Origin: a virus
Strand: one strand, 5' to 3'
Length of the DNA: 23,741 nt
Virus record (IMG/VR): IMGVR_UViG_3300030943_000175
Coordinates: 1-23,741 of that record
Shown: positions 4,647 to 23,741 of the stretch, one piece after another
How positions within the stretch are numbered: the first letter of the stretch is position 1
Layout: each line of letters opens with the position of its first letter
The notes under the pieces: model-generated
Database searches by the model: none
Seen by the model: only the letters and a program-made list of their open reading frames with translations
Told to the model about the DNA's origin: nothing
Position numbers and translations under genes: made by a program

Positions 4647-4954
4647 TGTTCTGTTGTATTAATAGTTAATGCTATCCGTTGCTTGTAATTCTGGTAATTG
4701 ATTCCTGCCCTGGTTAAATGCTGCCTGATCCGCTGTTCAATTTCGCTTTGACTAAATTTGCCGCGCATAAATTTTGTAAGTCCGGCACCAATCAGAGGAT
4801 CTTCTTTTAATTCGCCTTGCTGCATTTTCAAGGCTATGGCAGCGCACTGATCAGTATTGTCGCCAATAACCAGTCCTCCTGTTATCAGTCCATTTGCAGA
4901 ATGTCGTACGATCACCTGTAATCCAAAATCGCTATCGGTTAAAATGCCTTTCAT
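4643..4954 (-). CDS. Gp46/gp25-W-like baseplate wedge protein
   Basis: 103 residues from the ATG at 4952-4954; two further codons upstream would need a TTG start. The family usually begins with a short domain and beta strands (here GILTDSDFGLQVIV and GLVIGDNTDQ), then DPLIGAGLTKFMRGKFSQSE, where the PL.G.GL segment and the following helix match the phage gp25/W and Mu Gp46 pattern. The C-terminal part is helix then beta (IEQRIRQHLTRAGINYQNYK). Function in family: wedge component joining baseplate to tube. It lies between the spike gene and the endolysin; a 7-bp tandem array fills the gap to the spike gene. Confidence 0.72.
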   Translation of the reverse strand: MKGILTDSDFGLQVIVRHSANGLITGGLVIGDNTDQCAAIALKMQQGELKEDPLIGAGLTKFMRGKFSQSEIEQRIRQHLTRAGINYQNYKQRIALTINTTEQ

Positions 4955-4963
4955 CACCAATCC

Positions 4964-4991
4964 TTAATCGTTAATCATCAATCGTTAATCT
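4964..4991. repeat. 7-bp tandem repeat, TTAATCG type
   Basis: TTAATCG, TTAATCA, TCAATCG and TTAATCT occupy exactly the space between the stop of the spike gene (4992) and the start of the next gene, in a 7-bp register. Confidence 0.9.
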
Positions 4992-5498
4992 TCAGTGCTT
5001 TATTTTTGCATCTTCAATATTTGAGAAATCACCAATTTGTACTGCCGTCATTGCCGTTTCAAAAGCTGCCGATGTTCCCGGAACAAGTGAATCCAAAGCC
5101 GTCGCAATTGCCTTTGTTGCTGTTTTTAGTTGCTGGCAGTACTGGTTTGTTTTATCCAGTTGCGTTTTCAATTCCGGGGTAATAGTTAATCCACCCAACT
5201 CTCCGCCATTGAACTGAATCAAGTCAGCTTCATCGGCAAATAGCAAAAAGGCCGTAGCTTCATCACCTTCCACAATGGCAATCAGGCAATCAGTACCAAC
5301 CACCGGCTTAACCGCTGTTGTTCCAACTCCCAGCAAAACATCAAAGAACTCCAGTCCATCACCATCCACCGCCGTCATTGTTTGCGCATCCCAGTCAACT
5401 TCAGTCGCCGAAACCCAACGTAAAGTCGCTTTCATGCTTCCGTTTAAATGGCCTTTAAACAGTTGGCTAAACCGGTCCAATTCGTTTTTTAGTGTCAT
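4992..5498 (-). CDS. Gp45/gpV-like baseplate spike protein
   Basis: 168 residues from the ATG at 5496-5498, chosen because it overlaps the previous stop as ATGA; an ATG eight codons upstream is the longer alternative. Residues 20-90 form an OB-like beta domain: ATLRWVSATEVDWDAQTMTAVDGDG, then LLGVGTTAVKPVVGTDCLI and the hydrophobic end AFLLFADE. The segment FNGGELGGLTITPELKTQLDK at about 95-115 is typical of Mu Gp45-like spikes in Bacteroidota phages (the motif NGG..GGL), followed by a helical tail. These proteins form the trimeric spike under the tube. Position after the gpD-like hub supports it. Confidence 0.75.
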   Translation of the reverse strand: MTLKNELDRFSQLFKGHLNGSMKATLRWVSATEVDWDAQTMTAVDGDGLEFFDVLLGVGTTAVKPVVGTDCLIAIVEGDEATAFLLFADEADLIQFNGGELGGLTITPELKTQLDKTNQYCQQLKTATKAIATALDSLVPGTSAAFETAMTAVQIGDFSNIEDAKIKH

Positions 5499-6451
5499 GA
5501 TGCTTTTAATCCAAGTTTGCAAACCTGTCTATATCCTGCTGGAGCAAAATTTTTCGTTACTGCGTCGATATAGTAAGTTCCGTTTTTCTCCGGATAAAGA
5601 ATGCTTTTCAAATTCATTCGATGACCATGCTGCACACGTGGCACACCCCATAAAGTCAGGTCGCCATCCAGTCCAGGTTGTTTCGATTGCTCGTATAGTT
5701 TTTCAGCCTCACGCCTCATTTCAGCTTCGCTGATTTCAATACCGCTTATTTCGCGGGTAATCCGTTTACCAGCCTCTTTGTCGCCAACCTCTACCCGTAT
5801 TTTTTTGCCTTTTCTCCTGATCAGGCTCATAATCACCAATGTCTTTTCAATCTCACGTTGTTTCAGACTTTCTGAAGCCGTTCGTTCAACCAGTATTTCA
5901 ACCGGATCGGCATTGCTTTTACTCGTGCCGAATGCGTGAAGCTCTTTGCCTTCAAACCAGCAGTAAATTCCGTTTTTTTGCAGTTCCTCCAATATCTGGC
6001 TGGGCGACATTTTCGAAAATCGTACATTACCAAGTTTGGCATCGTCGCAAACAATAGTGTAACCTGGAGCAATTTCTTTGAGTAGTTGTTTCAGGCTGCA
6101 ATCTGTTTTGCTAATACTTACCGTCGATCGCTTCAGTTTGTACATTTCATCTTCACATGCAATAATCAGCGGAATACCGGCAGGAACTTTTTTAATGTAG
6201 CCCTGGAACTCCAGCGACAAGTTACCATCGTATCCTAACCATATTTCAACCGGATCACCTTCCCGGAACCATTCACTTACCTTGAGCCGGTCGAAGTCTT
6301 TTACCTTACGTGGAATGGTGATTTCAGCGGTATCGGTGAGGCTTCTCCAGCTGCTTTCGATCTTACACTCGCTGAAGCGGCGAATGCGGAAAGCCTGGCG
6401 ACCATCATTCGCCGGGAAAATAAGCTCACCATATAAAGCGTAGGTACTCAT
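5495..6451 (-). CDS. gpD/Gp44-like tail hub protein
   Basis: 318 residues. Hub proteins of this family (P2 gpD, Mu Gp44, T4 gp27) connect tube to spike. Seen here: an N-terminal beta domain with RRFSECKIESSWRSLTDTAE and ITIPR, then REGDPVEIWLGYDG at about 64-77, a pattern frequent in the first tube-like domain; the stretch SPSQILEELQKNGIYCWFEG near 148-167, a common hub helix-strand; and a C-terminal barrel ending with ILYPEKNGTYYIDAVTKNF. Its ends overlap both neighbours by ATGA-type junctions (6448-6451 and 5495-5498), so three baseplate genes are translationally coupled. Confidence 0.78.
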   Translation of the reverse strand: MSTYALYGELIFPANDGRQAFRIRRFSECKIESSWRSLTDTAEITIPRKVKDFDRLKVSEWFREGDPVEIWLGYDGNLSLEFQGYIKKVPAGIPLIIACEDEMYKLKRSTVSISKTDCSLKQLLKEIAPGYTIVCDDAKLGNVRFSKMSPSQILEELQKNGIYCWFEGKELHAFGTSKSNADPVEILVERTASESLKQREIEKTLVIMSLIRRKGKKIRVEVGDKEAGKRITREISGIEISEAEMRREAEKLYEQSKQPGLDGDLTLWGVPRVQHGHRMNLKSILYPEKNGTYYIDAVTKNFAPAGYRQVCKLGLKAS

Positions 6452-7170
6452 AGCATATCTGTCAATAATAAATCACCATCACTTACAGCCTCAATGCTGT
6501 ATTGCATCATATTTGGCTTACCCTGAACGGGTGAAAACTTCAGGCTTTCGGTAACGATCCGGGTGATGCTTCTTTGTGCAAAGTTTTGTCCGGAAACTTC
6601 AATGCTTCCGGCAATTTCGTGAAACAATTGTATTGCTTCCATTTGCTCAGCCACCGTTTGTTGTGTGAGCGGGTTTAGGTTATCCGGAAGGATTATACCG
6701 GAGATGGAAATACTCCAGTCCTCTAAACCGTAAATTTCTTTCACTGTACCAATACCACCTAACGTAGGTGTTTTGGTCACTGTTTTTTGTCTGCCAAATT
6801 CGACCAACGTAGCCAATGGCATCAATAAATCACTCAGCTCAATGTCGATCAGATTTCCCTTGTAATCCCATATTTTATAGGTACCTCCTTTTAGCCAGAA
6901 AGCGCCAAAGCTTTTTTGGCCAAAACGTACCGGAGCATTGTCATAATCAACATCATTATTCAGAACCTGAATATTGGTATAAGGTAAAGCCAAACCATCG
7001 GCTGGCGTTCCTTCCTTCACATCGGTATAGGGAAGGGCTTTATAAGTCCGTTTCAGAAACCACGGCACATAAACCGGCGATTCAACGCCAAACACATCGC
7101 TCAACAGCCTACTTACATAGCCTGTATCGATTGCTGGCCGTTGGTCTAATATGGAAGGTTTATAGGTCAT
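6448..7170 (-). CDS. DUF6046-like tail hub-associated protein
   Basis: 240 residues. I recognise the DUF6046-type pattern of Bacteroidota phages: an N-terminal region with paired aromatic/Pro loops (VYVPWFLKRTY, ALPYTDVKEG, ALPYTNIQVL), a strand pair GTYKIWDYKGNLIDIELSD, then the conserved block VTKTPTLGGIGTVKEIYGLE followed by DWSISISG near residues 130-157. It occupies the place of Mu Gp43 (N) between tape measure and hub, so a role joining tape measure or tube to the hub is likely. Overlaps tape measure stop by 4 bases (7167-7170) and the hub gene by 4 bases. The family number is from memory. Confidence 0.65.
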   Translation of the reverse strand: MTYKPSILDQRPAIDTGYVSRLLSDVFGVESPVYVPWFLKRTYKALPYTDVKEGTPADGLALPYTNIQVLNNDVDYDNAPVRFGQKSFGAFWLKGGTYKIWDYKGNLIDIELSDLLMPLATLVEFGRQKTVTKTPTLGGIGTVKEIYGLEDWSISISGIILPDNLNPLTQQTVAEQMEAIQLFHEIAGSIEVSGQNFAQRSITRIVTESLKFSPVQGKPNMMQYSIEAVSDGDLLLTDML

Positions 7171-9203
7171 GATAATGCGACTAGTCCGTCACTCAGTTTG
7201 TCGTTAATAACTCTTACAACCTTTTCAGCAATGGCCTCAAAATTGTTTTTATCAGCATCACCACTGATAGTAAAGTAGTTCTTGATGTCGATCTTTTGAG
7301 AAATATTCTTTATTCCGGAGGAAGATCCGGAACCCTTTAATTCAGCGTCTGAAGTCTTTTTGCTGGCTGTTTTTAAGTCACCTGGCTTAATTACAGGTGA
7401 CGGTCTTAACAGAGATAAATGTTTATCGACAGGAGACATTTGCCAATCGGCTGCCTGAAATGCAAAATCAGGGTTGCCATTGCTTGCATAAGGCACGAAA
7501 CTGGAAGCATCGGTTTTTGGTCGTTTATCAGGATTTTCCTTGTAAAAGTCCTCCATTCCTTCCTGTTTGCCTTTCCCGAAAGCTTCACCAATCTCACGGC
7601 CATAGTTGGTCGCTGCATCTCCTATTTTTTTAAACCCAGCCGAAAATGAATAGTTAGGATCAAACCAGTTGAGCGGGTTGAAAACACCGCTCAGCAAATC
7701 CAATATACCTGATCCGACTTCTTTAATAAATCCCCAGACGCCAGTAAATACAGTTTTAACAGCATCCCACAAACCCCACAAAAAGCCTCTGAAGGTTGCT
7801 GAAGTATTGTAAAAATAGGTTGCTAAAGCAATCAGTCCGGCAATAATGGCTGCAATCCACCCGATAATTGGGATATTCATAATTGCAACGCCCAGGGCTT
7901 TGGCTGCTACACCCATCATTCCGAATGCACCAGAAATCAACGTACTGGCTCCTGTAACGATCGCTCCAATAACAGGCATAGTTTTCAAGGTATCAAAAAG
8001 CAAAATAACACCTGTACGGGCATTTGCCAGGTTAGCCATGATCATTACTGCGCCTGCCAGTCCGTCAATAAACGGCGTGATCTTCGAAGTCACATCAAAC
8101 ATGCCAATAGCAATATCGGTAAACCATGTTTTCACACGCCCCATGGTTTCGTTATAACCACTCATTACAATGTTTGCCTGTTCAACAGCTGTATTAGTGC
8201 CGGTAATCTTTGTTTTTAGCTGGTCCTGGTAATCACACGACCGGAGCAATATTTCAGCGGCGGCGGCATTCTCAACACCAAAAATCTGTGCCACTACGGT
8301 AGAATCACTCTGTGCTTTCTTTAATTCGCGCAAACGAGTGGTTAATGGCAATGTTTTGTTCGAAACAATGTCGTAGTTAATGCCCAATGCCTCCAACTTT
8401 GCGGCGGCTTCTTTGGGTACAATGTCGATACCTGCCATTTTCGAAAGCACATTTCGCAAAGCGGTACCGGCTTCAGCGCCATATTTACCACCCTGTGCAA
8501 GCGCCTGAATGGCGGCATTGGTCTCAATAAAGCTCACTTTGCTACTTAAAGCCTGCACCCCCGCCACGTTTAAGGCGTTTGTGATCTGAGGAACTTCAGC
8601 AGCGCCTTCTTTGGCACCGGCAGCCATCACGTTCATCATGGTTGTCATCTCTTGTGCTGCCTTCATCGGATCGCTCAGGTCAACTCCAAACTGAAGCATG
8701 GACGTTGTTAAGGCGTCCATCGATGCAACCGCATCGTTTTTCATTGTTTTGCTCAGCGTGGCAATATCGCGGCCCATCAAATCAAGCGCATCCTGATTTT
8801 TTGCAATATCAGGGCCAAAACGCGAAAGAACGCCTTTATAACTTTCCAACATGGCCGAGGCATCACCGCCAAACACTTTGGCGGTGGCCCTGCCCTTTTC
8901 TCCCAACTCATCCAGCGCGTCACCGGAAACCCCGGTCAAGGCTTCTAAATCTTTTAGCTGCGCATTAAATGTCGCGCCTGGAGCATTGAGTTTGTCAAAT
9001 TCATTCGCAATATTCTGAACGGCATCGTTGATCGCGAACAGATCAATTGCCGACATTCCTTTTAGCTTCTTACCGCTTTCTTCAGCTTTATGGCCAATGT
9101 CATCAACCCCTTTGGCTGCTTTTTCGCTTGCATTGATTACATCCTTCATAGGCCCTGTAATCTTATCTACAAGTTCAAGAATCCATTGAGTTGTTGTTGA
9201 CAT
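7167..9203 (-). CDS. Tail tape measure protein
   Basis: 678 residues. Sets tail length and is ejected with DNA. Residues about 70-330 match the phage minor tail/tape measure core (TP901-like: LEALTGVSGDALDELGEKGR, TTSMLQFGVDLSDPMKAAQE, GTALRNVLSKMAG, VVAQIFGVENAAAAEILLRS). Residues about 385-475 hold several hydrophobic segments (VMIMANLAN, IIGWIAAIIAGLIALATYFY) thought to help cross the inner membrane. The C-terminus is polar. Using the usual rule of about 0.15 nm per residue, tail length would be near 100 nm. The first codons overlap, in another frame, the end of the frameshifted chaperone extension (stop at 9175-9177), as in many tailed phages. Confidence 0.93.
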   Translation of the reverse strand: MSTTTQWILELVDKITGPMKDVINASEKAAKGVDDIGHKAEESGKKLKGMSAIDLFAINDAVQNIANEFDKLNAPGATFNAQLKDLEALTGVSGDALDELGEKGRATAKVFGGDASAMLESYKGVLSRFGPDIAKNQDALDLMGRDIATLSKTMKNDAVASMDALTTSMLQFGVDLSDPMKAAQEMTTMMNVMAAGAKEGAAEVPQITNALNVAGVQALSSKVSFIETNAAIQALAQGGKYGAEAGTALRNVLSKMAGIDIVPKEAAAKLEALGINYDIVSNKTLPLTTRLRELKKAQSDSTVVAQIFGVENAAAAEILLRSCDYQDQLKTKITGTNTAVEQANIVMSGYNETMGRVKTWFTDIAIGMFDVTSKITPFIDGLAGAVMIMANLANARTGVILLFDTLKTMPVIGAIVTGASTLISGAFGMMGVAAKALGVAIMNIPIIGWIAAIIAGLIALATYFYNTSATFRGFLWGLWDAVKTVFTGVWGFIKEVGSGILDLLSGVFNPLNWFDPNYSFSAGFKKIGDAATNYGREIGEAFGKGKQEGMEDFYKENPDKRPKTDASSFVPYASNGNPDFAFQAADWQMSPVDKHLSLLRPSPVIKPGDLKTASKKTSDAELKGSGSSSGIKNISQKIDIKNYFTISGDADKNNFEAIAEKVVRVINDKLSDGLVALS

Positions 9204-13265: not shown

Positions 13266-14381
13266 CTATTTAATTTTGTTACGTTTCTTGTAGTCAGCAA
13301 ACAATCCTTCAAAAGCTTCCGGGTTGTTTTCTTCCAGTTCAGCCAGCAAATCAGGGTTTTCGTCCTGAATCTGTTCAAAGGTTTTACCCTCGTAAGTAGC
13401 ACCCTTCCCATCAACACTGGTTTTAATGCCTGATGACAGTGGTTTAACTACGGCAGTCAATCCGCTCAACAAAGCCTTTGTTCCTTCAAAGTCTTTTTCA
13501 AACTGAGTTTGCCAGTTGGCACGTGCATCCGCTTTGATGCGTTTGTCCTTTTCAGCAGCATCAAGTTCAGCCTTGATATTTGCCGCTTTTTCGTTCTTAT
13601 CCTTTAGGTCCTTTTCGGCCTTCAGGGTATCGTAGTCTTTTGCCTTTCTTGCATTCGCAGCAATCTGTGCATTAACCTGATCTTCGGTAGAATTCGAATC
13701 CATACCGAGACTAATAGCCACAAGTTTTACATCCATTTGAGTATTTAAATTTGGTTCAACAATAATATCGGTCGTTGCTATTGCTATCGGCGATCCGCTT
13801 TTTTGGATAGCGCTAGCCGTTTCCTGGTCAATTTTAACAGGCTCCTTAATGTCTGTCACAAAACCCCAATCCTTAGCTTGCTGGGCGGTCATCCAAAAAT
13901 CACCTGATTCCCATTTCGCCTTAAAATCCTTTTCGGGTTTCTTTAGTACTGCCACATAAGCATCGTAGTAAGTCGCGGTCATATTCTTAAGCAATGTCAG
14001 GTAGTTTTCAACTTCCGTTTCATTGCCTTGAGCACCGCCCTCAGGTTTGTGAATCATGTATTGACCATTCTTAGCCAATATGAAGCTCTTTGCATTTACG
14101 CCAATGTAAGTTCCGGCACTGGCTACAACAGCTCCACCTTCTCCGGTATAGCTACCGAATAAATCTGTCAAAATGTTTACAATTTCGTTTCCTTGGAAAC
14201 AATCACCACCAACGGTCATCAAATAAACATGACAATTGGTCATTCCTGCATTTTTCTGTTCCTGGCATTTTGCTTTTAAGTCAGTAGCATTGTTTTTATT
14301 CCATTCATAAATTGAACCGGTAATATCAACAAAACACGTTTGTCCTTCAGCGAAAACTTTTACTTGCAAACTTTTGCTCAT
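13266..14381 (-). CDS. ClpP-type head maturation protease fused to scaffold
   Basis: 371 residues from the ATG at 14379-14381. Starts at 14393 and 14429 are possible, but the family begins close to MSKSLQVKVF. Residues 5-185 are a ClpP-like serine protease: MTVGGDCFQGNEI (55-67), nucleophile Ser88 in VVASAGTY, His111 in MIHKPEGG, and likely Asp161 in SGDFWMTAQQAKDWGFVTDI. Residues about 240-371 are a highly charged helical region (KAEKDLKDKNEKAANIKAEL) typical of the scaffold part removed during head maturation. Mu gpI/Z works the same way, with internal scaffold. It is the first gene of the minus operon. Confidence 0.9.
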   Translation of the reverse strand: MSKSLQVKVFAEGQTCFVDITGSIYEWNKNNATDLKAKCQEQKNAGMTNCHVYLMTVGGDCFQGNEIVNILTDLFGSYTGEGGAVVASAGTYIGVNAKSFILAKNGQYMIHKPEGGAQGNETEVENYLTLLKNMTATYYDAYVAVLKKPEKDFKAKWESGDFWMTAQQAKDWGFVTDIKEPVKIDQETASAIQKSGSPIAIATTDIIVEPNLNTQMDVKLVAISLGMDSNSTEDQVNAQIAANARKAKDYDTLKAEKDLKDKNEKAANIKAELDAAEKDKRIKADARANWQTQFEKDFEGTKALLSGLTAVVKPLSSGIKTSVDGKGATYEGKTFEQIQDENPDLLAELEENNPEAFEGLFADYKKRNKIK

Positions 14382-14596
14382 ACACTTTAACATTAAAAAA
14401 TTGTCAAAATCGACACGTTTGATGAGCAAAGGTTCAGGCTTTTTTAGAGAAAGAAAAATCAGCTTTTTATATAGAGAAAATAAGTGACAGTTAAGAAATT
14501 ATACGTGTGTTTAACACGAATTTTTTAGTGTAGATAAAACGACTTTTTTCAACCCATAAAAGAATAAAACAACTTTGCTGAAAATAACAGCAGAGT
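14382..14596. promoter_or_regulatory. Divergent late control region
   Basis: AT-rich spacer between the two structural operons. Towards the plus side, CAACTTTG (14570-14577) resembles the Bacteroidota -7 element TAnnTTTG with one mismatch, and a T-run (14544-14550) lies 19 bases upstream at the -33 place; the start codon follows 19 bases later. Towards the minus side, AACCTTTG is a similar imperfect match. A perfect palindrome GTGTT-T-AACAC (14507-14517) sits between them and could bind an activator. Imperfect promoters plus a palindrome fit late promoters that need a phage activator (Mor/C-like), but that is inference. Confidence 0.5.
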
Positions 14597-17293: not shown

Positions 17294-17305
17294 ACACTAT
17301 TTAAA
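17289..17305. repeat. TTTAAA-N5-TTTAAA junction motif, copy 2
   Basis: TTTAAA-CACTA-TTTAAA spans the Gp36-like stop codon (17291-17293) and the portal start (17305-17307). With one more base pair on each side it becomes an 8-bp stem CATTTAAA/TTTAAATG (17287-17307) that includes the portal ATG, so it could damp portal translation. Confidence 0.8.
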
Positions 17306-19839
17306 TGGCTACGAAAATTAAAGAACGCATCGGCAATGCCTTCGAAAAGGCAATACTAAGCCGGGTAAAAAATAACAATTTGTTTGCCGAATATTACAAC
17401 CGGTCCGATGGCAAAAAGCCAACATACAGACGGCTACCTACATTATACGATGCCCAGGAAATAACCAACTGGAAACGTGGAGTAATGGCGGCTACCGATC
17501 CTTACTATCCGCGCCGTGGTATTTTAATGCGGTTCAATCAGTCGCTATTACTCGACAATCACTTAGCAAGTGTTATAGATACCCGAATCCTTCGCGTTCA
17601 GCGTTCATCTTTTAAAATTGTTAACGATAAAGGAGTTGAAAACGAACAGTTAAAAGCATTGCTCGAACGCCCATGGCACGACAATATGATGCGGCTGAGT
17701 CTATTCTCAATTTATCAGGGGCCAACGCTCATCGAAATGTTCGATACCGACGAAAACGGCGAATTGGTACGTGTTAAAGAAATACCCCAAAGCAATTTTA
17801 TTCCGCAAAAAGGGATTATCATCAACGAGGAATATGATGATAACGGAACTAGCTATCTGGATGGAATATACCGTGACTATTACCTTCAGGTTGGCGAAGA
17901 TTGGGACTTAGGTATGCTCAACCAGTTAGCCATGATCGTTCTGGCTAAAAAACTGGGTATGGGTAGTTGGATGAGTTACATCGATAAGTTTGGCGTTCCT
18001 CCTGTTTTTGTAGTTACCGAACGCATGGATACAGGTCGCCGCGATGAGCTTTTCGAAATGCTCGAAAACTTCCGTTCCAATCAGTTCGGAGTTCTTCAGG
18101 GAAAGGAAACAATTACAATTCCAAACAATTATAATTCCGATGCTTACCAGTCCTTTAAATCGCTCATCAACGACGTTTGCAACAAAGAAATAAGTAGACG
18201 GGTATTAGGAGGATCATCAACAACCGACGAAAAAGCTTTTGTTGGCGCTGCTGAAGTTCAGGAACGATTGACACAGGATCGATATGAACAGGACAAACTG
18301 TTCTACAAATACCTGTTCAATACCCAAATCAAAACAAGGCTTGCAAAAATCAGCAGTGTTTATGCTGACTTTTCAACTCACACGCTGGTATGGGATAATC
18401 AGGAAACGCTTGATATCACTGGGTACATTGATGCAGTAGAGAAACTTTCAACCGCATTCGATTTCGACATAGCAGAGGTTCGCACACGCACAGGGCTCCC
18501 AATCATCGGGGCAAAAAGCACTGCTACTTTGCCTCCTGATAATACAGGCGGTCAAAAAAAAAAGCCTAACGCAACCTTAAAAGGTATCGCTCCATACTCC
18601 CAACTCAAACCAGCATTCGTCATTTATGCAGCTACCTGGGATGCTGCCATTGAGCGGCTGGCCAATCAAATCTATTCCGGAGAAGTTAAACCGGCTGATC
18701 TTGATAAAGACCTGGTCCTTAAAAACTATGCGGCTTTCAATAACGAAGCCGCCAAAGCGTATGGCCAAGGTTACTACGATTCAAGCCTGACAAGAAGCTT
18801 CCGGGAAAACTTTTTAAAGTTCGCAGGTGCAAAATCACACGCGCTCATGACTGATATTGCCGCCATCGACTCGCGCGCAGGTATGTCAAAAGAATCGTTC
18901 ATTGCCCAGGCTAAAAGAATCGTTCAAACCCACAACGAAACATGGCTCACCACAGAGCTGCGCTATTGTAGCAGTTCAGTAAGTGCCGCCCAGGACTATG
19001 CCACCTATCTCAACGATGTGGATATTTATCCCTGTCTGAAAAACCGGACAATGGAAGATAGCGAGGTTCGCGACAGCCATGCTTTAAACGATGGGATCGT
19101 GAGGCCGGTCAGCGAGTGGACTTCAATTCCACCTTACGATCAGGGTTGCCGCTGCTGGCTCGAACAAACCACCGACGAACCAACCTTCGGACGAAAATTG
19201 CAAGGCATTAAGTTTCACAACAACCCACACCAGTCAGGAGAAGTATTTACCCAGGAGCAAAGTTATTTTAAGGCTATTCCCGACAATAAAAAAGGCATCA
19301 TTCGTGACAATACGGAGCAAATGAAAGCCTTTATGCCTTACAATCAGACCAAAAAAGCAGGCGAAAACACCGTTTTCGTTAACGATTTTGCCGATTTATC
19401 CGACGTAAAAGCCTCTGTAATTGCTGCCGAAAAGGTTGCCAAAGAGCTTCAGCAAGATGTTTATGTCCGTCCACACATCGAAAATAGCGACAAAACAGCC
19501 ATCAAAAACCCCGAAATTGGGTTAGGAAAGCCCAATAATTTGGCCGATTTAAAGACTTTTGACGCAAATAAGTCAACATCAACACCATCTTTTATCAAGA
19601 ATGCAGTTAAATCAGCAAACAAACAACAATGTTCAGGAATAGTAATCGACCTGTCAAATGCTCCTGAAGGTAATTATCTGGCACTCGCAGCGCGTAAGTT
19701 GCGGGGAGAATTATCCGACAAAGGCAAAGTAAATCACAACATTAAACAGGTAATCATTATACGTGAAGATAAAGTATTGAAGGTATCAAGGCAGCAAATA
19801 AACAGCAGTAAGTTTATGCAGTATTTCAAACTTGACTAA
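17305..19839 (+). CDS. Portal (DUF935) fused to MuF head protein and a C-terminal CdiA-type tRNase-like domain
   Basis: 844 residues in three parts. Residues 1-400: DUF935/Gp29 portal, with MSYIDKFGVPPVFVVTER (223-240) and the FGVLQGKETITIPN stretch (261-274). A linker near 405-425 (Pro/Gly/Lys-rich) joins residues 430-640, a MuF/SPP1 gp7-like minor head domain: SFRENFLKFAG, EVRDSHALNDGIVRPVSEW (587-605) and the typical end YDQGCRCWLE (611-620). Residues 690-844 resemble the CdiA C-terminal tRNase domain: KNPEIGLGKPNNLADLKTF (Glu737, Asp748, Lys750 as possible PD-(D/E)xK residues), KQQCSGIVIDLSNAP and HNIKQVIIIRED. MuF-toxin fusions are known; fusion to the portal too is unusual. No immunity gene follows directly. 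Confidence 0.85.
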   Translation: MATKIKERIGNAFEKAILSRVKNNNLFAEYYNRSDGKKPTYRRLPTLYDAQEITNWKRGVMAATDPYYPRRGILMRFNQSLLLDNHLASVIDTRILRVQRSSFKIVNDKGVENEQLKALLERPWHDNMMRLSLFSIYQGPTLIEMFDTDENGELVRVKEIPQSNFIPQKGIIINEEYDDNGTSYLDGIYRDYYLQVGEDWDLGMLNQLAMIVLAKKLGMGSWMSYIDKFGVPPVFVVTERMDTGRRDELFEMLENFRSNQFGVLQGKETITIPNNYNSDAYQSFKSLINDVCNKEISRRVLGGSSTTDEKAFVGAAEVQERLTQDRYEQDKLFYKYLFNTQIKTRLAKISSVYADFSTHTLVWDNQETLDITGYIDAVEKLSTAFDFDIAEVRTRTGLPIIGAKSTATLPPDNTGGQKKKPNATLKGIAPYSQLKPAFVIYAATWDAAIERLANQIYSGEVKPADLDKDLVLKNYAAFNNEAAKAYGQGYYDSSLTRSFRENFLKFAGAKSHALMTDIAAIDSRAGMSKESFIAQAKRIVQTHNETWLTTELRYCSSSVSAAQDYATYLNDVDIYPCLKNRTMEDSEVRDSHALNDGIVRPVSEWTSIPPYDQGCRCWLEQTTDEPTFGRKLQGIKFHNNPHQSGEVFTQEQSYFKAIPDNKKGIIRDNTEQMKAFMPYNQTKKAGENTVFVNDFADLSDVKASVIAAEKVAKELQQDVYVRPHIENSDKTAIKNPEIGLGKPNNLADLKTFDANKSTSTPSFIKNAVKSANKQQCSGIVIDLSNAPEGNYLALAARKLRGELSDKGKVNHNIKQVIIIREDKVLKVSRQQINSSKFMQYFKLD

Positions 19840-19846
19840 ATAACAA

Positions 19847-19873
19847 AAGGCAAACACCGGAAATGTTTGCCTT
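19847..19873. terminator. Hairpin after the portal fusion gene
   Basis: AAGGCAAACA (19847-19856) and TGTTTGCCTT (19864-19873) form a 10-bp perfect stem with a 7-base loop. No U-tract follows on the plus strand, so attenuation or RNA processing is more likely than full termination. The first possible ATG downstream (19863) lies in the loop, which argues for the start at 19923. Confidence 0.6.
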
Positions 19874-19922
19874 CGAACCGAGATCAAGCAACGCTTTCTC
19901 TCACTGCAAATATACAAAAATA

Positions 19923-20537
19923 ATGGATAACAAAAACAATGTCCCAAATTTCAGGCAGATAGGTAATGAACTATTGAAAAATGCTTCACGCTATGCTGCA
20001 TCAGAAGCCGTAAAATTCTTTAAAGACAGCTTCCCTAAAGGTGGGTTTACGGATAGTTCATTCCAAAAGTGGCAGCAAACAAGTAACCCACTGGCTGGTA
20101 AGCACACTATGTACCAAAGCGGAAAGCTCATGCGATCTATCAAAAAGCAGTTGGCCACAATAAATAAAGTGGTAGTAATAGCTGATTCCGACCATGCTGA
20201 TATCCATAATTCAGGAGGCACCATAACCGTCACGGCTCAAATGAAAAAGTATTTCTGGGCAAAGTTCTACGAGTTGTCGGGAAAAGTGACGGTCAACAAA
20301 CAAGGAGCGGTATCGCTTAATAAATCAAATAAAGCAATCGGAGTAAAAGCCATGTTTTGCAGACGAATGGCCCTCATGCCTGTGGGTTCAAAAATAAAAA
20401 TACCCAAACGCCAGTTTATGGGTAACAGCAAAACCCTAATGACTGATTTCGATAGTTGGTTCGGTAACATTATTAAAACCCAGGTCGAGCCACAGTTCAA
20501 TAATCCAACAGTAACCATTACAACACCAACTGTTTAA
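19923..20537 (+). CDS. gpG-like virion morphogenesis protein
   Basis: 204 residues from the ATG at 19923, chosen because the earlier ATG at 19863 is inside a hairpin. The N-terminal part (QIGNELLKNASRYAASEAVKFF, then FKDSFPKGGF) and the Trp/Gln segment SFQKWQQTS with LMRSIKK (about 68-74), followed by VVVIADSDHADIHNSGGTIT and YFWAKFYELSG, are the gpG/HK97 gp10-like pattern (aggregated beta core with 'IHN.GG'). The final part has KIPKRQFMG, the conserved PxR.F. In Mu, gpG acts in head and tail joining. It lies after the portal fusion as in Mu's F-G order. Confidence 0.85.
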   Translation: MDNKNNVPNFRQIGNELLKNASRYAASEAVKFFKDSFPKGGFTDSSFQKWQQTSNPLAGKHTMYQSGKLMRSIKKQLATINKVVVIADSDHADIHNSGGTITVTAQMKKYFWAKFYELSGKVTVNKQGAVSLNKSNKAIGVKAMFCRRMALMPVGSKIKIPKRQFMGNSKTLMTDFDSWFGNIIKTQVEPQFNNPTVTITTPTV

Positions 20538-21478: not shown

Positions 21479-21701
21479 ATCCCTATCATTTATTATATCA
21501 ACTACTTAAACAATACTTAACCAGCCTTAATCATTAGCTCTAAAATTCAATCAAAATTATAACTTAATTCAACCATCAATCATCATTCGAAACTCTAAAT
21601 AAAAGCCGCAAAACGCGCAGAACTCCCGTGTCTAAAGGACTTCAATAAAATTTGCGCCCGCTGTGTTTTCACCTCTTTCAAAGTACCCCCTTCATTACAC
21701 A
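21479..21701. other. Phage right-end terminal region
   Basis: 223 bases with no supported gene. The outer part, read inward from the host, begins TGTGTAATGAAGGGGG and contains TTTGAAAGAGG and ATTGAAGTCC, possibly degenerate binding sites of a Mu-type transposase, but no clear repeat was found by eye. A pair GCGCA/TGCGC lies near 21616-21654. Base composition is AT-rich until about 21600, then mixed. Confidence 0.6.
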
Positions 21702-22313
21702 AAAAATGGTGATAATGGCTCCCAGGATCATTGGCCACCATAAAGGGGCTGGAATTTCCTTTTCGCTGGAAGTGGCTCGAAGTCCCCTAAAGGTCGAAAG
21801 TTGATTCAAGTGATTAAACATTTCAGCTACCAATTGAATTTGGAACTGGTTTTTAGGATTGAGATGTTCTATTTTATAAAAAACACGGTCAAACGATTCG
21901 GGCGTTTTTCGGCTTGGTTTCATTCGTTCCATGTTGGGAAATTCTTCGTCAATAACGTTGTATATAAAGTCGAGGTAAACGATCATAAGTTGTTTCGATT
22001 CAACAGTATCCGGATAAAATTTGATATCGTGATATAAACCCATCGCAGAACTACCTTCCCGACTTACATTGCCCCGTGTTTCATTCAATTGTCCCCACAC
22101 CATAAACACAATAAAGCTAAGCAGGAATGCATAAAAGCTGGCAATGGCCAGAAAAAGAAACCCGGTTACTTCGTTGTGCGACCGGAGAATTTTTACATTG
22201 ACATATCTGCGAAATAGAAAAGTGCCAAGCCCCCCAACGATTGCCCCCAAAGAAATGATCAAAATAAAAAGTACGAAAGTTGGTATTTGAAACAAATAAT
22301 AGGTGAAATCCAT
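21678..22313 (-). CDS. Host DUF4239 (bestrophin-like) protein, 3' end cut by prophage
   Basis: Starts at ATG 22311-22313; an upstream TTG would lie in the intergenic repeat. About 204 host residues remain, then 7 residues from phage DNA (CVMKGVL) and a stop. Matches the DUF4239 pattern: a membrane segment TFVLFILIISLGAIVGGLGT, another GFLFLAIASFYAFLLSFIVF, the YVNVKILRSHNEV stretch before it, and a cytosolic helical middle, then PAPLWWPMILGAIITIF, the start of the third membrane segment. The family normally finishes that segment, adds a fourth, and totals about 250 residues. The missing end should be on the far side of the prophage. Physiological role of the family is poorly known. Confidence 0.78.
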   Translation of the reverse strand: MDFTYYLFQIPTFVLFILIISLGAIVGGLGTFLFRRYVNVKILRSHNEVTGFLFLAIASFYAFLLSFIVFMVWGQLNETRGNVSREGSSAMGLYHDIKFYPDTVESKQLMIVYLDFIYNVIDEEFPNMERMKPSRKTPESFDRVFYKIEHLNPKNQFQIQLVAEMFNHLNQLSTFRGLRATSSEKEIPAPLWWPMILGAIITIFCVMKGVL

Positions 22314-22525
22314 CAGATATGAATGTTTGTAGTAAAAAAGTCGATAGAAGCAGGTAAGGTGCAACGCACCGGGATATTATAAATATCAGGCATCTATAAT
22401 TTCGGTGCTCTGCACCTTTTGTGTGTATTGTAACATAAATGCTACAAATATCAACGGTGCGCTACACCTAATAAGTGCTTGTATTATTTTACCCATACTA
22501 TCCTTCATAGAACCAGTTTTTTGTT
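22314..22525. repeat. Three GGTGC palindromes (REP-like) upstream of DUF4239 gene
   Basis: GGTGCAACGCACC (22358-22370), GGTGCTCTGCACC (22404-22416) and the imperfect GGTGCGCTACACC (22456-22468) are short palindromes spaced by 33 and 39 bases. ATAAATATC and ACAAATATC precede two spacers. The design is that of REP-like elements that are mobilised by RAYT transposases. The rest of this gap holds no gene. Confidence 0.65.
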
Positions 22526-22981
22526 TCAAAATGTTTTTTCTTTTTCTAAAGCCGCCACTTTTTCAAGCCGCCGCTTGAACCGTTCTTCAGGCTTAAAATC
22601 AGCGTTCAGGAATGTTTGAACCAATTCCCAGGCCAGGGCGGTGCCTGTTACCTTGCCGCCCAGGCACATCATGTTCATGTCATCGTCTTCAACACCCTGA
22701 TGAGCAGAAAAAGAATCTGTGATCAATGCTGCACGGACACCTGATATTTTATTGGCTGCAATGCAAGCACCAACGCCACTGCCACAGATCGCCAGTCCAC
22801 GGGTTATTTTACCTTCCGAAATTGCCCGAGCCAATGGCGCTATAAAATCGGGGTAATCATCTCCGGGAACCAACTCACTGGCGCCGAAATCTTTTATCCG
22901 GTAACCGGCAAAAGTAAGGGCAGCAGTCAGTTGTGTCTTTAGTTCAAACCCTCCGTGGTCGGCGGCTATACCGATGAGCAT
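22526..22981 (-). CDS. rpiB: Ribose-5-phosphate isomerase B (RpiB/LacAB family)
   Basis: 151 residues from the ATG at 22979-22981, the place where family members begin (IGIAADHGGFELK). A start at 23029 is possible and would overlap xfp by 22 bases. Interconverts ribose 5-phosphate and ribulose 5-phosphate in the non-oxidative pentose phosphate pathway, in the cytosol. Phosphate/substrate site residues Asp8 and His9 in ADHGG, catalytic Cys66 in AICGSGVG, and NKISGVRAALITD are all present. The usual EHND segment is replaced by VEDDDMN in HQGVEDDDMNMMCLGG, a variant I know from another RpiB branch. It directly follows xfp, whose product uses pentose phosphates. Confidence 0.93.
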   Translation of the reverse strand: MLIGIAADHGGFELKTQLTAALTFAGYRIKDFGASELVPGDDYPDFIAPLARAISEGKITRGLAICGSGVGACIAANKISGVRAALITDSFSAHQGVEDDDMNMMCLGGKVTGTALAWELVQTFLNADFKPEERFKRRLEKVAALEKEKTF

Positions 22982-23007
22982 TTCATCTCTTCGATATTCC
23001 AGGTTTT

Positions 23008-23741
23008 CTATGTTATCTTCTGATTCCATTTCCAGTTCAGTATTTCAGGCATGTCCTGTCCGTGTAAGTCGATGTATTTTTTGTGTTTGATAAGCTTATC
23101 TTTCATCATCTTCTTCAGCTTAGCACCATTGGCTCCCAATTGTGGCAATCGGTTAATCACATCCAGAACCAGGTGAAACCGGTCCATATCGTTCAAAACG
23201 GTCATGTCGAAATAAGTGGTGATGGTTCCTTCTTCCTTGTAACCGCGCACATGAATGTTTTCGTGATTGGTCCGGCGGTAAGTCATGCGATGAATGAGCC
23301 AGGGGTAACCATGAAACGCGAAAACAATTGGTTTATCTTTGGTGAAAAGCGCATCGAAATCCGGGTCACTTAATCCGTGCGGATGCTCCGTGTCAGGTTG
23401 AAGCTTCATCAGATCGACCACATTGATTACCCTGATTTTCAATTCAGGTAAATGTTCACGAAGGATGGAGACTGCGGCCAGTGTTTCGAGTGTGGGTACG
23501 TCGCCGCAGCAAGCCATTACCACATCCGGTTCGGCATTCTGATCGTTACTTGCCCATTGCCAGATTCCGATGCCTGCGGTGCAATGTACGACCGCTTCTT
23601 CCATGGTTAACCATTGTGGCGCCTGGTATTTTCCGGCGATTACAACATTCACATAATGACGGCTCCTCAAACAATGATCCCACACCGATAGCAAACAGTT
23701 GGCTTCGGGAGGAAGATAAACGCGCACGATGGAAGCCTTTT
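23008..23741 (-). CDS. xfp: Phosphoketolase, C-terminal part; 5' end beyond window
   Basis: About 244 C-terminal residues of a protein that normally has about 800. The frame runs off the right edge without a start; a GTG at 23727 is internal (preceding codons give KASI). Matches Xfp/Xpk: [100 protein letters not shown]. Thiamine-diphosphate enzyme that splits xylulose 5-phosphate or fructose 6-phosphate to acetyl phosphate plus an aldose phosphate. With rpiB immediately downstream it suggests a pentose phosphoketolase unit. Confidence 0.95.

Follow-up and report, generated by a model that had tools for sequence, protein, structure and literature searches.

The window (the whole 23,741-nucleotide stretch analysed here, IMG/VR virus record IMGVR_UViG_3300030943_000175) encodes an 844-residue protein in which a portal, a MuF minor head protein and a nuclease-like domain follow each other in a single reading frame. 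Judging from sequence and comparison with relatives, this is very probably a two-product recoded gene of a Mu-like Bacteroidota prophage, in which slippage at a run of ten adenines (A10) between the portal and MuF domains would yield a plain portal besides the fusion, giving a probably mixed portal ring that carries a virion nuclease effector. As far as the open-access literature searched shows, no phage portal gene has so far been reported to be recoded, and this site would be the first. It is widespread, and its construction from four or more different kinds of slippery signal suggests selection for both products.

The fusion gene and its setting

The fusion gene occupies positions 17305..19839 of the plus strand as one uninterrupted frame with an ATG start, as an earlier note on this DNA had read it. 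The portal, which that note had placed at residues 1-400 and assigned to the DUF935 type, was recovered with PF06074 (Portal_Mu) over residues 81-398 (17545..18498, plus strand; E=2e-53). A linker at residues 392-443 (18478..18633, plus strand) is variable, predicted to be disordered and lowered in synonymous divergence. The MuF minor head domain spans about residues 438-618 (18616..19158, plus strand) and ends in a CRC motif. Over residues 525-618, Phage_Mu_F (PF04233) matched with E=1e-4 and 23.4 bits, under the Pfam cut-off of 29.6, and PHROG minor-head and DNA-pilot profiles cover the same stretch (E=1.5e-7). The QGCRC end that had been assigned to the MuF domain is present in the 844-aa protein, as is IVIDLSNAP. 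The remaining residues 641-844 (19225..19836, plus strand) form a domain of the CdiA_C (PF18451) type. Most of the portal was badly modelled in the full-length AlphaFold prediction, from which only the low-confidence linker and the MuF and C-terminal parts, which fold separately, were considered.

Upstream, the fusion gene is preceded by a terminase gene (phrog_38, E=1.7e-52) and a gp36-like adaptor gene, and a Clp-type protease gene lies at 13266-14429 of the window. Downstream it adjoins a gpG-like Phage_tail_S gene (19923..20537, plus strand), whose ATG stands 83 nt past the fusion stop, which is the gap length given earlier; an alternative in-frame ATG lies at 19863. A hairpin at 19846-19874, inside this gap, is terminator-like on the minus strand. 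The minus strand of 21678-23741 carries host-type genes (bestrophin-like, RpiB and phosphoketolase). Because host genes (RpiB, phosphoketolase) stand at its right end, the window is a prophage, which ends somewhere between about 21.1 and 21.7 kb.

A search for homologous portal-MuF fusions in viral and genome collections found the same single-frame fusion in about 25 distinct Bacteroidales loci, confirmed by tblastn, including isolates of Marinilabilia, Dysgonomonas, Carboxylicivirga and Bacteroides acidifaciens. Most of these loci carry the same C-terminal domain as the window. Its recurrence in so many distinct loci excludes, for the window, that two genes were joined by a sequencing error. 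In flavobacterial and some sphingobacterial relatives, portal and MuF lie in two frames; a family search around one Flavobacterium genome added 3 further loci. The portal-MuF fusion itself is not new, because passages of two earlier papers already describe the fused MuF-portal of Microbacterium phages (PMC7302621) and fusions of PBECR nucleases to MuF and portal (Iyer 2017, PMC5512222). The window protein resembles these in joining portal and MuF, or portal, MuF and nuclease, in one chain. The passages concerned, however, mention no recoding site, and the domain of the window is of the CdiA_C type and not PBECR.

The C-terminal domain

Residues 690-844 had been said to resemble the CdiA tRNase domain. 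The window domain alone gave no PF18451 match, only chance matches in Pfam, PHROG and NCBIfam, whereas 26 of 41 aligned homologous C-termini matched PF18451 (best E=2.8e-13). The PF18451 cut-off of 26.6 bits was passed by L062 (41.3 bits) and by the fused protein of Dysgonomonas hofstadii (30.9 bits). Across the 41 aligned sequences Q774 never varies, and E737, D748 and K750 hardly do. Residues of the PD-(D/E)xK type are present; the conserved motifs of the family are N735-P736-E737, D748-x-K750 and Q774. The family profile matches PDB 4g6v, the CdiA-CT of Burkholderia pseudomallei 1026b, over the NPD...D region with E=0.0058. This is a weak match in sequence, and the Burkholderia toxin differs in being delivered by CDI and in having a cognate immunity protein. 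The AlphaFold model of the C-terminal domain is confident (pLDDT 91) and has its elements in the order alpha-beta-beta-beta-alpha-beta. Among BFVD entries, the model matched a 'CDI toxin-like protein' of a virus (E=2.8e-6) and, with E=4.3e-4, a 'Portal protein' of 883 aa, but a Foldseek search of PDB had no significant match. On these sequence features the domain is most likely an effector, a PD-(D/E)xK-type nuclease carried in the virion and used at infection, and its predicted activity would be on tRNA.

The domain could instead serve as a structural or DNA-handling part of the head, a reading that is compatible with the slip site and that we consider rather unlikely. Its presence in most relatives under purifying selection (dN/dS ~0.1) would fit a head domain, as would the Peternella copy, in which the E and K motif residues are lost. 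The lack of an immunity gene would fit as well: no small ORF of this kind lies directly downstream in the window or in those CdiA_C relatives that were inspected, and a gpG-like gene comes next, in line with the earlier statement that no immunity gene adjoins. Against a structural role stands, besides the conserved PD-(D/E)xK residues and PF18451 matches, the variation of the C-terminus between relatives. The P. gingivalis phage has PBECR2 in its place (E=6.9e-12), L025/L056 have a different C-terminal domain instead of CdiA_C, and other relatives look, on reading of the sequence alone, as if they ended in papain-like, ART (ADP-ribosyltransferase)-like or JAB-like domains. In L041-L043 the domain is absent; the fused protein stops at 676 aa and gpG begins 16 nt later. 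If the domain is an effector, as we prefer, an immunity gene may be dispensable provided that production of the protein is restricted to the late stage of lysis and the protein is kept in the head.

In L014/L058 the fused protein has 1106 aa, and an extra domain with a zincin-like HHEYGHH motif follows CdiA_C. Only in these two of the loci inspected does a 62-aa Cys-rich ORF start at the fusion stop codon; it could be an immunity gene.

The slip site at the portal/MuF joint

At the joint the window reads CAA AAA AAA AAG CCT AAC. The A10 run (C AAA AAA AAA AG, 18554..18563, plus strand) holds the slippery heptamer A_AAA_AAG in the portal frame, and a TAA stop of the -1 frame follows immediately (18567..18569, plus strand). 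With one A added, which equals a -1 ribosomal slip at A_AAA_AAG, the sequence reads GCC TAA and translation ends after 421 residues. The predicted stand-alone portal (17305..18569, plus strand) would consist of residues 1-420 and an alanine, by frame reading and by homology to the 424-431 aa portals of split relatives.

An A9-A12 run stands at the same joint in nearly all close relatives, and all A or T runs of at least 10 nt in 35 distinct loci (379 kb) are this joint run. Among the fused genes, the -1 frame meets a stop no more than two codons past the run in 28 of 32, against 5.1 expected. When one row per 75%-identity cluster was kept, this held for 13 of 16 rows, which still share descent (binomial P ~2e-8). 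The stops and flanks behind the run are varied (GCC TAA, GCC TGA, GCT TGA, GAG TAG and GAG TAA), and in L005 and L047 the -1 stop lies 5 and 11 codons further on. Compared with L003, the linker has a dS of 0.35 against 0.96-1.38, yet more amino-acid divergence. RNA structure 3' of the window A10 was unremarkable among windows of the same gene, and most A10 sites, that of the window included, have no hairpin. At the A10 sites run length and not codon phase is conserved and RNA structure is usually absent, which would favour slippage during transcription, as in the dnaX gene of Thermus (compare PMC3711429).

In most relatives with a short run or none, a slippery heptamer stands 4-6 nt 5' of a stable hairpin, and ribosomal -1 frameshifting would be favoured at these short sites. 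In the A6 relatives a hairpin lies 4-5 nt downstream, and about 10 nt upstream there is a stretch rich in purines. In L028, L029 and L046 the heptamer is A_AAA_AAG, and the hairpin, again 4-5 nt downstream (z -4.4, -4.3 and -5.3), ranks within the most stable 0.2% of the windows of its own gene. Four other junctions (L062, L082, L084 and L085) consist of T_TTT_TTC, a 6-nt spacer containing a zero-frame TAA, and a hairpin. The motif TTTTTTCGNNTAAGCCC, built from these four junctions and scanned over IMG/VR, was found in at least 120 places. Among the matches listed, 99 of 120 immediately follow a portal domain and have the heptamer in its frame; 94 of these 99 continue into MuF in the -1 frame. 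Stems of at least 6 bp are formed in 78 of the 88 distinct junctions among the matches listed, compared with 5% of shuffled tails, and in the same 88 the pairs covary, stem levels 4-6 showing several types of pair. With an independent pattern, CAAAAAAAAAAGCNTRA, 71 places were obtained, 29 of them portals. T_TTT_TTC with a hairpin also marks the joint of P. gingivalis phage013a (L008, fused), of L009 (fused) and of Hankyphage p00 (L010), and L086, L087, L089 and L090 have A_AAT_TTT with a hairpin and an immediate -1 stop. In most of these genes the joint heptamer is the sole in-frame heptamer with a strong hairpin. No clear hairpin was seen in L030, L077 and L079, and phage Mu and L007 have separate genes and no cassette.

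The flavobacterial relatives, including Winogradskyella phage Peternella_1 (L006), show the reverse parity. Their portal frame ends shortly past the run, from which onwards the MuF frame is open, so that the normal frame gives the portal alone and a -1 slip would give the fusion. Relative to the portal, MuF lies in the -1 frame in every one of these relatives except L033. In L006, L027 and L032 no start codon precedes the MuF homology, the first possible start lying at or inside it; a complete MuF could therefore be made only via slippage. In Peternella_1 (4854-7396) the region is annotated as two head genes, with the GTG start of MuF inside a conserved MuF helix; this start is probably spurious. 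The tree suggests that the outcome of portal plus portal-MuF was kept while the default product switched, with the single-row switches L049 and L056 uncertain. As both parities exist, the ratio needed may be loose.

These comparisons bear on three other explanations of the joint. A constitutive fusion, with MuF and nuclease on all 12 portal subunits of the vertex, would agree with the zero frame being fully open in the window and most Bacteroidales relatives, and constitutive-looking fusions are known in other clades and phages. We regard it as improbable, as the A10 run with its immediate -1 stop is conserved against expectation and the split relatives produce the portal alone in the zero frame. 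Six loci that could pass for constitutive fusions (L008, L009, L086, L087, L089 and L090) were rejected as such, each having a heptamer and hairpin in the linker. The earlier proposal that each portal subunit would bear a nuclease is not supported; the conserved slip site predicts a 421-aa portal beside the 844-aa fusion.

Alternatively, replication slippage could alter the length of A10 in the DNA and switch the MuF-effector on and off between lysogens. Long poly-A tracts are known to phase-vary (PMC3711429), and L049 and L013 are identical over 10.5 kb, and L056 and L055 over 7.9 kb, except for one A in the run. However, these A9 differences may be sequencing errors; indistinguishable from such errors, L049 and L056 were left out of the split set. 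DNA-level switching would also leave unexplained the immediate -1 stop, the near-constant -1 frame of split MuF and the heptamers with hairpins in short-run loci, and as the sole explanation it is highly improbable. From the single-A pairs the run is seen to be labile, be it in sequencing or in the DNA itself, and phase variation may add to RNA-level slippage. That the run is a mere by-product of a Lys-rich linker (which contains KKK, in loci with 63% AAA among Lys codons) or an assembly artefact is hardly credible, given that KKK outside the linker is coded AAA AAA AAR in just 8 of 71 cases in these loci, that the run persists in phases 0, 1 and 2, with differing flanks and also in isolate genomes, and that unrelated slippery signals take its place at the same joint.

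Proposed mechanism and related systems

We propose that RNA polymerase or the ribosome slips at A10 between the portal and MuF domains. Without a slip the gene would give the 844-aa portal-MuF-nuclease and with a -1 slip (one extra A) the 421-aa plain portal, and the ratio of the two products would follow from the slippage. The portal ring would then probably be mixed, part of its subunits covalently carrying MuF and the C-terminal effector. Such a ring would restore the portal-bound, low-copy state of separate MuF proteins, for example SPP1 gp7. Release of the effector from the portal could occur, for example, through the head maturation protease, for which the Clp-type protease gene at 13266-14429 is a candidate.

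The closest parallel in recoding is dnaX, with A_AAA_AAG frameshifting in E. coli and A-run transcriptional slippage in Thermus (PMC5009743, PMC3711429). As in dnaX, one gene would give two products, the signal is A_AAA_AAG or an A-run, and a -1 slip leads to a stop within one or two codons; the purine-rich upstream stretch and downstream hairpin of the A6 relatives are further likenesses. Unlike in dnaX, the gene here is a phage portal gene, the long product adds a head protein and an effector, and the parity is reversed in the flavobacterial relatives. Frameshifts in structural genes are known from the lambda G/GT tail chaperone, the major head protein of phage A2, and PSA (PMC5009743, PMC2628397), where, as proposed here, recoding fixes the ratio of two virion or assembly proteins. 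None of these concerns a portal gene, and no report of portal-gene recoding was found in the open-access literature searched. The MuF polymorphic toxins of temperate phages (Jamet 2017; Apk2; Bxa; PMC5576092, PMC11699363) share with the window a MuF domain with an exchangeable C-terminal effector that adjoins the portal gene. They differ from the window, where MuF is joined to the portal via the slip site and no immunity ORF follows.

More tentatively, and with somewhat less than even confidence, recoding at the portal/MuF joint may be a general device of Mu-like Bacteroidota phages. It would set the number of covalently tethered, exchangeable effectors (nucleases, ADP-ribosyltransferases and papain-like enzymes) per ring, to be released by processing and delivered with the DNA, and some separately annotated MuF toxins would be frameshift products of the portal-MuF-toxin type. 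The slip site would offer a direct route to counting the copies of MuF and effector at the portal vertex. It would also mend gene annotation in many phages that have split MuF genes with spurious starts, and would alter the way in which MuF toxins from phages of gut Bacteroidota ought to be cloned and studied.

In one further locus (L115), the -1 frame MuF (about 5376-7970) contains, as read from its translation, an intein-like insert placed exactly at the NC/CRC motif.
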